From Candidatus Bipolaricaulota bacterium (lineage in GTDB: Bacteria > Bipolaricaulota > Bipolaricaulia > Bipolaricaulales > Bipolaricaulaceae): a stretch of 47,807 nucleotides of DNA. Below the pieces are notes generated by a model. It made no database searches. It had not been told where the DNA came from and saw only the letters and a list, made by a program, of their open reading frames with translations. Each line of letters starts with the position of its first letter. Position 1 is the stretch's first letter. Both the position numbers and the translations under genes were made by a program. Positions 41,507-47,807 of this stretch are shown piece after piece. The DNA lies in NCBI GenBank assembly GCA_026418075.1, contig JAOACA010000005.1, forward strand, positions 1 through 47,807. The letters run 5' to 3'.

Positions 41507-42808
41507 CTACTTCACCTCGACCCAGATCGGGTTCGTCCACGCCCCATCCCCGTCCGTGGCCACCACGCGGACGATGTACCACCCGCTCGTGGTCGGCCGA
41601 TCGGTGAAGGTGATCGTGGCCTCGGGCTTCCCGTCGAGGGCGAACTCCCGCACGACCGCGCCGTTTCGGATCACCTGGAGGAGGGAAAGGCCCCGCGGCC
41701 CGTCCCGGGGGGCGACGACGAGCTCGGCCCGGAGCCGGAGCTCCTCCCCGGGCTTGAGGGCGACCGTGTCCCCCGGCCGGGCCGCCCCTTGGGCGGTGAG
41801 GTTCACGAGGGGCCCGTAGGTCACGAACGCCCGGCCCCGCCCGAGCGCGTCGAGCCACTTCTCGACCGTGAACTCCCCCTCCACGTGGACGTAGGTCCGC
41901 GGCCGGCCGTAGGGGTCGGCCGGGTCCTTCCAGTCGTGGGCGTCGCTTGCCCCCACGGCCACGTAGCGACGCCCCTCGTTCCAGAACTTGAACATCTGCT
42001 CCACGGCCCGGGCGTCGTCGTCCTCAAACGGGCCGTTGGCGATCTCCACGAGCTCAAACCCGGGGTCGAAGAACGGCTTCCCCAGGGCCTCGAAGTACGG
42101 GGCCCCCGACCAGTAGGGGTGGTTCGCCTGAACAAACCGGGCGCCCTGGGCCCGGGCCTCGGCGAACGTGGGGGCAGGGGACCCGACCCCCATCCACACC
42201 ATGGGTGGGATCTGGGGGACGTAGGCCTGGACGGGAAACGCGTTCCAGTGCCAGCGGAACGCGGTGATTTCGATCCCGAGGACGACCGGGAACCCTCGGT
42301 TCGCCGCCGCCGCGGCGTAGGGGGCGTGGCCGTCCCCGGTGTTGTGGTCGGTGAGGAACCCCAGATCCAGGTCCGCGGCGAGCTGGACCGCCACGAGCTC
42401 CTCGGGCGGGGTTTTGCCGTCGAAGCTCGCGCTGGAGTGGGCGTGGGGGTCGCCCCCGTAGTAGCCCCAGGCGCGGGGGGAGAAGCCTGTGGGGAGCGCC
42501 ACCTCGAGCTCGACCGCCCTCCCCGCCTCCACGGTCACCTCCCGGAGGACGGCCCCCCGGGTGAACCCCGCCCCCCGGTCCACGACCAGGGTGTACGTCC
42601 CCGGGGGGAGCGGGATCCGCACGAGCCCCGGCGCCGCGGCCGGGCTGTAGTGGACCCCAAGCGTCTTTTCCCCCTGGCGGACGACGACCTTCACGTCCGC
42701 CGGCCTCCCGTCCAGGGTCGCCCGGACGAGGACCTCCCCTTGGGCGAGGGCGCTCCCCGCCAGGGCCGCCACGAGCACCAGTCCGATCAGGCGTCCTCCG
42801 CGCACCAT
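41507..42808 (-). CDS. Exported CehA/McbA-type PHP-like metallohydrolase
   Basis: Signal peptide; YYGGDPHAHSSASFDGKTPPEEL, DLGFLTDHNTGDG, GIEITAF, ANHPYW, GASDAHDW; AAGGAGG Shine-Dalgarno. Confidence 0.82.
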   Translation of the reverse strand: MVRGGRLIGLVLVAALAGSALAQGEVLVRATLDGRPADVKVVVRQGEKTLGVHYSPAAAPGLVRIPLPPGTYTLVVDRGAGFTRGAVLREVTVEAGRAVELEVALPTGFSPRAWGYYGGDPHAHSSASFDGKTPPEELVAVQLAADLDLGFLTDHNTGDGHAPYAAAAANRGFPVVLGIEITAFRWHWNAFPVQAYVPQIPPMVWMGVGSPAPTFAEARAQGARFVQANHPYWSGAPYFEALGKPFFDPGFELVEIANGPFEDDDARAVEQMFKFWNEGRRYVAVGASDAHDWKDPADPYGRPRTYVHVEGEFTVEKWLDALGRGRAFVTYGPLVNLTAQGAARPGDTVALKPGEELRLRAELVVAPRDGPRGLSLLQVIRNGAVVREFALDGKPEATITFTDRPTTSGWYIVRVVATDGDGAWTNPIWVEVK

Positions 42809-44941: not shown

Positions 44942-46105
44942 ATGAAGCGGGCTCTCGCGATTGCTGTTGCGCTGTGTACGCTTGGGTTTGCGGGCTTCTC
45001 CCAGATCGCCATCAAGGGGAGCTGGACGGCCTCCGTGTGCCTTGTCCCCTCGACGACCCTCACGAGCACCCTCAACCTGACCTACACGGTCGCCGGGTTT
45101 GACATCACGAGCATCACCGGGTTCGGCGCGGCCGGGATCACGTCCCAGCGGTTCACGTTCAAGGGCGTGTTCGGGCCGTTCTCCGCGTCGGGGAACGTGT
45201 GGTTCCAGCCCTCGCCGGCCGCCTACCTCGCCGCGGACGCGGTGACGAGCTTTGACTTCGGCGGGATCGCGATCGGGGCCACGGTCCGCCACTGGACGCC
45301 GGGGAACTTCCGGACGACCGAGTGGGCGCCGGACAGCGACCCCTGCGCGACCCAGACCCCGCCCGGTGTCGGCTACCTCCAGTACATCTTCACCGGGACG
45401 ATCTCCCCGCTTTCGATCCGCGCTCGGTTTGCGGACTGCTGCACCGGGGCCTCGTTCCAGGACCTGCGGATCTCCCTCACCGGGGTCGACCTCTGCTGCG
45501 GGATCAAGTACAACGCGGTTGTTGACTTCACGAAGGCCGGGTTCCAGAGCCTGACCCTCTCCGGGATCAACATCCCGCTCTGCTGCGGCGTGTCGTTCGA
45601 CCTCTCGATCACCTACTCCGTCGCCGCCAAGTCCGTGACCTTCACCCCGAAGTTCGCCGGGATCGCCGAGGCGTGCTTCACGGTGTGGGGCGGGCCGGTC
45701 TCCGGCGCGACGACCAACATCTGGGAAGGCCTCCGGATTGACGGGTTCCGGATCCGCTGCACGATCGCCGACTGCAACTACCTCGAGTACGTCCACGCCT
45801 TCGCTCCGACGGCTGGGACGATCCCGTCCGCGATCCGCGCCAAGTTCCTCGCGGCCTGCCAGGAGAACGAGTACCTCGAGCTCGGGTTCTGCGGCGCCGG
45901 CTGCTGCGGCGGGAAGTACGAGGTCAGCCTCCGGATCCTGTGGTCCACGACCCTCACCAACCCCGGCCTCTTCGGCGTGACCCGGTTCGTCGGCTCGGCG
46001 AAGATCCCGGTGATGGCGAACTTCACCCTCAACCTCGACTTCGTGATGCCGGCCGCGGCCTGCGCTTCGGCCAGCTTCTGCTTCGGCTGGACGTTCACGT
46101 TCTAG
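44942..46105 (+). CDS. Exported cysteine-rich beta-barrel-like protein, paralogue of 1611..2780
   Basis: Signal peptide; FADCCTG, VDLCCGI, IPLCCGV, LGFCGAGCCGGKY, C-terminal FGWTFTF; AAGGAGG Shine-Dalgarno. Confidence 0.82.
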   Translation: MKRALAIAVALCTLGFAGFSQIAIKGSWTASVCLVPSTTLTSTLNLTYTVAGFDITSITGFGAAGITSQRFTFKGVFGPFSASGNVWFQPSPAAYLAADAVTSFDFGGIAIGATVRHWTPGNFRTTEWAPDSDPCATQTPPGVGYLQYIFTGTISPLSIRARFADCCTGASFQDLRISLTGVDLCCGIKYNAVVDFTKAGFQSLTLSGINIPLCCGVSFDLSITYSVAAKSVTFTPKFAGIAEACFTVWGGPVSGATTNIWEGLRIDGFRIRCTIADCNYLEYVHAFAPTAGTIPSAIRAKFLAACQENEYLELGFCGAGCCGGKYEVSLRILWSTTLTNPGLFGVTRFVGSAKIPVMANFTLNLDFVMPAAACASASFCFGWTFTF

Positions 46106-46523: not shown

Positions 46524-47807
46524 CTACGGGGCGTCCCCCTCGAGCTCCCGGATCGTCCCCGTCACCACGTGGAACCCCAAGGTCCCCTGGGCGATCCGGA
46601 AGTCGTGGACCGGGAGCACGGCCCCGATCGCCTCCACGGGCTTGAGGAACAGCATCGGGTTGTAGGGCGGGGAGACCTTCTTGGAGCGGAGGAAGGCCAT
46701 CGCCCGGGCGTCGGCCGGCGTCCGGGGGGTGGGGTCCCCGTCGCCGTCGAGGTCGAGGTACAGCTTGAGCTCGAGGATCCAACCGGCGTCCGTGAGCTCG
46801 AACTGGAGGTCCACCCACCCGGACCCGATCGTCCCCTGCCAGAGGAGGTTCCGGTTGTTGTTCGTGAGGGTGGGGGCCGGGCCGGAGCTGGGGGTCACGG
46901 CCACGTTCCGGAACTGGCCCACGGTCCCAAGCTCCACTTGGAACGGGCGGGGGCTCGTCCAGGTCGCGCTCCCAGCCACGGTGACGTGCCACCGGTACTG
47001 GGGGTCGCCCCACACGTAGATCCCGGGCTTGTCAATCGTCGGCATCCCGGGGAGGCTCGGGGGCGGCGGAGGCGGGGTCCCCACGGTGATCGTCCGCGTG
47101 GTCGTCCCCGTCGCCCCGAGGTTGTCGGTCACGGTGAGGGTCACGGTGTAGGTTCCGGGGGCGGTGTAGCGCTTCTGGATCTGGGGCCCGGTGCCCGTGG
47201 CCCCGTCCCCGAAGTTCCAGCTCCAGGCCACCACCGCCCCATCGGGGTCGGTCGAGGCCCGGCCGTCGAACGTGATCCACTGGTTCACCTGGGGGTTCGC
47301 CGGGGAGAAGGTGAACGAGGCCGTCGGGGGCTGGTTGGGAGCCGGTTGGATCGTGTACGGGGCCGATCCTTCGGCCCACGCCCCGGCCGGGACGTTTGCG
47401 GAAAGCCACGCCCGGACCTGGGAGAGGAACAGGGGCCCGTTCGTCGAGAGGATCGGGTACCCGGCGGGGTAGCTCGTCGGGAAGAGGGGGATCGCCCGGT
47501 CGGCGGCGAAGGCCACGATCTGCTCCGAGCCCACCGGCTCGGAGGTGATGAAGGCGTAGGTCGCGTTCCGCGGGAAGACGGTCGTCCCGGCGGGAACCGG
47601 AAGCGCCGCGTCTCGCCAGTTGGGGAAGAGGAGGATCGCCCGGCCAGCGGCGTCGAGCTCCACGAGGTAGAGGTGGCTCGCCCTCGACAGGGTCACCGTG
47701 ATCCGCACCGCCTCGCCCACGGTGTAGCTCCCCTTGTCCGTGGCCACAGCGAGCGCGAGCGCCGGCGCAGTCAGGGTGAGCTGGGCGGTGTTGTTCCCCT
47801 CGTCGGA
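46524..47807 (-). CDS. Multidomain exported protein, partial: CARDB-like end, DUF4384-like domain, PKD domain, C-terminal domain
   Basis: Frame is open to window edge (SDEGNNTAQLTLTAPALALAVATDKGSYTVGE); DUF4384-like YTVGEAVRITVTLSRASHLYLVELDAAGRAILLFPN; PKD WSWNFGDGATGTGP; polyproline linker. Confidence 0.75.
   Translation of the reverse strand, partial: SDEGNNTAQLTLTAPALALAVATDKGSYTVGEAVRITVTLSRASHLYLVELDAAGRAILLFPNWRDAALPVPAGTTVFPRNATYAFITSEPVGSEQIVAFAADRAIPLFPTSYPAGYPILSTNGPLFLSQVRAWLSANVPAGAWAEGSAPYTIQPAPNQPPTASFTFSPANPQVNQWITFDGRASTDPDGAVVAWSWNFGDGATGTGPQIQKRYTAPGTYTVTLTVTDNLGATGTTTRTITVGTPPPPPPSLPGMPTIDKPGIYVWGDPQYRWHVTVAGSATWTSPRPFQVELGTVGQFRNVAVTPSSGPAPTLTNNNRNLLWQGTIGSGWVDLQFELTDAGWILELKLYLDLDGDGDPTPRTPADARAMAFLRSKKVSPPYNPMLFLKPVEAIGAVLPVHDFRIAQGTLGFHVVTGTIRELEGDAP

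Follow-up and report, generated by a model that had tools for sequence, protein, structure and literature searches.

A cysteine-rich protein family of Bipolaricaulota is a likely outer-membrane beta-barrel and probable counterpart of Thermotoga Omp-beta

What does an exported protein with four pairs of adjacent cysteines and an aromatic C-terminal strand do in the envelope of an uncultured bacterium? The question is raised by a gene near one end of a 47,807-nucleotide stretch of Candidatus Bipolaricaulota DNA (the window), which an initial annotation had described as copy 2 of an exported, cysteine-rich family with an open reading frame (ORF) of about 388 aa. The frame of copy 2 runs uninterrupted from its ATG to a stop codon (387 aa), and we recovered every motif listed for it, namely FADCCTG, VDLCCGI, IPLCCGV, FCGAGCCGG, IRCTIADCNYLE, and the terminal FGWTFTF. 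The designation copy 2 is apt, as a true paralogue (copy 1) with 38% identity to it (E 7e-62) is encoded elsewhere in the window (Table 1). Copy 2 contains 18 cysteines, which make up 4.7% of its residues as compared to 0.8% across the other long ORFs of the window, and shuffling ruled out chance as the origin of its CC pairs (four against 0.76 expected, p = 0.003). The frame is kept in a sister genome with 82% protein identity; the ORF is real, and the observation is not due to chance. By inspection, the start of copy 2 (MKRALAIAVALCTLGFAGFSQ) is a signal peptide, which bears out the claim of export, and nearly all relatives begin alike. Anchoring as a lipoprotein was ruled out, there being no proper lipobox at C12.

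Table 1 Features of the window that relate to copy 2. Strand numbers (S) are those of the AlphaFold2 (AF2) model.
Feature	Position	Strand	Remark
Cysteine-rich outer-membrane beta-barrel (Omp-beta-like), copy 2, likely	44942..46105	+	About 22 predicted strands (AF2)
Signal peptide of copy 2	About residues 1-21		By inspection
Paralogue copy 1, 389 aa	1614..2780	-	Mature protein with only the ten conserved Cys
C166-C167; forms a variable Cys module with C135 (predicted S7-S8 and S9-S10 loops), present or absent jointly	45437..45442	+	
C185-C186 vicinal pair, predicted S10-S11 turn	45494..45499	+	C185 covaries with C273, C186 with C245
C214-C215 vicinal pair, predicted S12-S13 turn	45581..45586	+	CCG[VI] unit, second copy
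C245, core Cys	45674..45676	+	Retained across the phylum
C273 and C278 (IRCTIADCNYLE), predicted S16-S17 turn	45758..45775	+	
C317 and C321-C322 (FCGAGCCGG), predicted S18-S19 turn	45890..45907	+	CC retained in most members
C-terminal GWTFTF strand	46085..46102	+	Resembles BamA beta-signal (G-x-x-aromatic-x-F)
Secreted subtilase, C-terminal part (S8 + CARDB + DUF4384 + PKD)	46524..47807	-	N-terminus beyond the window

The initial annotation had proposed an outer-membrane barrel and a Foldseek search with a predicted structure. An AF2 model of copy 2, built with six sequences, contains approximately 22 antiparallel strands at moderate confidence (pLDDT 70, pTM 0.48); that of copy 1 was poorer (pLDDT 55, pTM 0.42). 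When the copy 2 model was compared with the PDB, the 44 top matches (E ≤ 0.001) were almost all outer-membrane barrels (BamA, BtuB, OprD-type, porins, and an autotransporter), with TM-scores of at most 0.49. TonB-dependent receptors and BtuB-like 22-stranded barrels have a strand number near that of copy 2 (best TM-scores 0.41–0.49), whereas copy 2 lacks a plug domain and its loops are far shorter. Because model confidence is moderate and the TM-scores reach at most 0.49, the strand number and the position of the cysteines at a rim are uncertain. Hydropathy alternates along the strand residues of 43 relatives (2.50 versus 1.18 ± 0.18, a value reached by 0 of 5000 shuffles), and the family ends in GW[TV]F[TS]F, with a terminal F in 39 of the 43 members. 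BamA/Omp85 is encoded in the window's own genome, and POTRA domains were found in five of five genomes tested. These findings agree with the proposal made initially and indicate that copy 2 is likely an outer-membrane barrel, with a topology that is predicted. Sec would export the protein, and BamA would insert it by way of the aromatic C-terminal strand.

The family had not been recognised initially, and our searches of Pfam, NCBIfam, and PDB sequences likewise returned no match; no relatives were found in the viral_contigs scan. The closest named relatives are Candidatus Bipolaricaulota MAGs. The protein query had a match in 72 of 100 relatives, and a profile search, which supplies the phyletic survey suggested at the outset, found the family in 94 of the 100 Bipolaricaulota genomes, frequently with 5–14 copies per genome. 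Copy 2 thus belongs to a new family of cysteine-rich outer-membrane barrels that is specific to Bipolaricaulota as far as searched, other phyla having been covered with short peptide patterns only. The cysteine-rich form is that of the window's own taxonomic family, f1; in more distant members it is chiefly C186, C245, and C321–C322 that remain. Some paralogues (L004:409-2238 and L061:4152-6035) carry about 220 residues, with no Pfam match, inserted between predicted strands S7 and S8. The family barrel also forms the C-terminus of some DUF11/CARDB giants (L044:20-3487, L060:4696-8544, and L052:3-7577); in these giants a single reading frame continues beyond both a second signal-like segment and a membrane helix to reach an InlB-type repeat followed by the barrel, and the products may be cleaved polyproteins.

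C185, C186, C245, and C321 are conserved in 43 of 43 family members, C214/C215, C273, C317, and C322 in 40–42, and C278 in 38. In the secondary structure of the moderate-confidence AF2 model, nearly all conserved cysteines lie in or beside hairpin turns. The ten with the highest conservation occupy every other turn, which puts them on one predicted rim. Vicinal cysteines at the surface, as envisaged in the initial annotation, fit these placements, although the confidence of the model leaves their position uncertain. Six model strands separate C185 from C273, its putative partner.

Presence and absence of the cysteines follow a pairwise pattern. Linkage of their presence across 57 representatives was strongest for C278/C317 (phi 0.96), followed by C214/C215 (0.89), C185/C273 (0.76), C245/C321 (0.70), and C186/C245 (0.69), and of 43 members, 32 have C135 together with C166 and 11 have neither; such counts are inflated by relatedness and reflect few independent changes. 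On a tree built without the cysteine columns tested, changes coincided above chance for 278/317 (p 5e-7), 185/273 (3e-4), and 214/215 (1e-4), and also for 215/278, in a test that assumes equal branches and has 3–4 shared changes underlying its result. This pairwise gain and loss (278–317, 185–273, 214–215, 135–166/167), read from sequence, is better explained by a network of disulfides than by a single metal cluster. Because the cysteines vary pairwise, a single shared cluster is disfavoured, and the metal or cluster binding put forward initially finds no support here. A simple scheme in which all cysteines pair is not supported by parity: copy-1-type proteins mostly have exactly ten mature cysteines, but only 14 of 37 mature proteins have an even number and 23 an odd one. 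Many copy-2-type proteins are among the latter, and at least one of their cysteines is therefore unpaired or intermolecular; such odd cysteines could cross-link subunits. Most likely, the 10–19 exported cysteines would form intramolecular disulfides across neighbouring turns that stiffen the barrel rim, with C185–C273, C186–C245, C278–C317, C135–C166, and the vicinal C214–C215 and C321–C322 as candidates. Chlamydial MOMP, a porin of about 40 kDa with 9 cysteines and both intra- and intersubunit disulfides (PMC549562), is likewise cysteine-rich; the Bipolaricaulota barrel differs from it in its vicinal CC pairs and cysteine pattern.

A rather unlikely alternative is that the conserved cysteines are not oxidised but coordinate soft metal ions (C186, C245, C321, and C322 might form one such site), which would make this a metal-binding or metal-uptake barrel. 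Searches with named Pfam families detected DsbB in none of 25 and VKOR in none of 7 f1 genomes, which are part-complete (two of them single-contig), and DsbA-like matches in five of 25, for the most part partial or weak; organisms so equipped would fit reduced cysteines, as would the persistence of the four core cysteines in most distant members. Cysteines also tend to be excluded from exported proteins in obligate anaerobes (PMC12453122), so that keeping ten needs a reason. What speaks against metal binding is that the cysteines vary pairwise rather than as one block and that conserved His or Asp companions are absent near the CC motifs; nor did we notice a metal-handling gene beside the barrel gene, although the neighbours were not searched for one. 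The exported proteins of f1 are cysteine-rich although neither DsbB nor VKOR was detected, which raises the question of how ten conserved exported cysteines are kept, paired or metal-bound, in anaerobes lacking both detectable enzymes. We entertain, tentatively, that a deep-branching anaerobic phylum builds its outer membrane from a phylum-specific barrel family held together by a disulfide network, several of its bonds vicinal, that arises in the absence of both DsbB and VKOR; if the cysteines are instead reduced, the rim would have thiolate metal sites. To our knowledge, thiolate metal sites on the rim of an outer-membrane barrel would be new.

Copy 2 lies after glmS in the window, which also encodes an exported CehA/McbA-type PHP metallohydrolase (41507-42808, minus strand). 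On its other side lies the subtilase gene, which is convergent with copy-2-type genes in many genomes; a further example is at L100:2525-6229 (minus strand). This conserved neighbour, together with the giants that end in the family domain, could be taken to mean that the barrel anchors large secreted proteins at the surface and is no general channel. We consider that improbable, since most copies listed are solo barrels, the subtilase gene is convergent and so not co-transcribed, and in the giants the membrane helix and second signal-like segment split passenger from barrel.

Other conserved neighbours, overlooked by the initial annotation, suggest a role for the family. A search for SLH domains located a small Omp-alpha-like tether gene (G000:C29:10317-10796; L133:1240-1722, minus strand) encoding 160 aa with a signal peptide, an SLH domain, and, by inspection, a short coiled coil and a C-terminal membrane helix. 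Genes of this type are present in 47 of 60 relatives. In 13 genomes (families f1, f2, and f5) such a gene precedes a family barrel gene by 114–543 bp in the same orientation, and in five further genomes tether and barrel are divergent and 1.5–2.7 kb apart; in the window's genome the tether gene is on a separate contig from the barrel. The tether-linked barrel is not always cysteine-rich, having fewer cysteines in f2 and f5 and, in G018, no CC. Our literature search found no paper joining Bipolaricaulota and SLH.

This arrangement is reminiscent of Thermotoga maritima ompA1-ompB, a two-gene tether-barrel layout (PMC3387000) in which, as in the 13 Bipolaricaulota genomes, the barrel gene (TM0476, OmpB/Omp-beta) lies directly downstream of the tether gene (TM0477, OmpA1/Omp-alpha). 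Like copy 2, TM0476 is an exported beta-rich protein of about 400 aa that ends in F, and the Bipolaricaulota tether matches the domain order of Thermotoga Omp-alpha (PMC9388160), although its coiled coil is much shorter (the whole protein is about 160 aa, as compared to a coiled coil of 316 residues). Both lineages are deep-branching anaerobes, and both are listed as having an outer membrane that detaches at the poles (PMC10665443). The Bipolaricaulota family differs from Omp-beta in having many cysteines and multiple copies, and Pfam and PDB sequences provide no bridge between the two barrels; the likeness is one of gene layout and architecture. OmpM and SlpA also combine an SLH tether with an outer-membrane barrel for attachment and uptake, but do so as SLH, coiled coil, and barrel in one chain, an architecture that does not fit here, where the SLH domain is encoded by a separate gene and is absent from the barrel.

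By analogy, the family would be the Omp-beta-like half of a Thermotoga-type envelope. We think it likely that copy 2 is an exported barrel, the counterpart of Thermotoga Omp-beta, that makes up the outer membrane's protein shell and its channels, with its cysteines most likely in disulfides. The family barrels probably build this protein shell in uncultured Bipolaricaulota, and the separate tether protein would tie the outer membrane to the wall. That copy 2 is instead an exported beta-rich surface or S-layer-like protein and no membrane barrel, as the moderate confidence of the model, least certain in its cysteine-rich middle, might allow, is very unlikely in view of the Foldseek matches, alternating hydropathy, terminal F, BamA, and tether synteny.

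The first closed genome of Candidatus Bipolaricaulis left undecided whether the organism is mono- or diderm (Hao et al., PMC6092417). A phylum-wide barrel family, an adjacent SLH tether, and BamA now offer named proteins with which to test for one membrane or two. Prosthecae at both poles have been reported for Bipolaricaulota (Acetothermia) (PMC6092417), and the parallel with Thermotoga suggests that these polar extensions may be a toga-like outer membrane.
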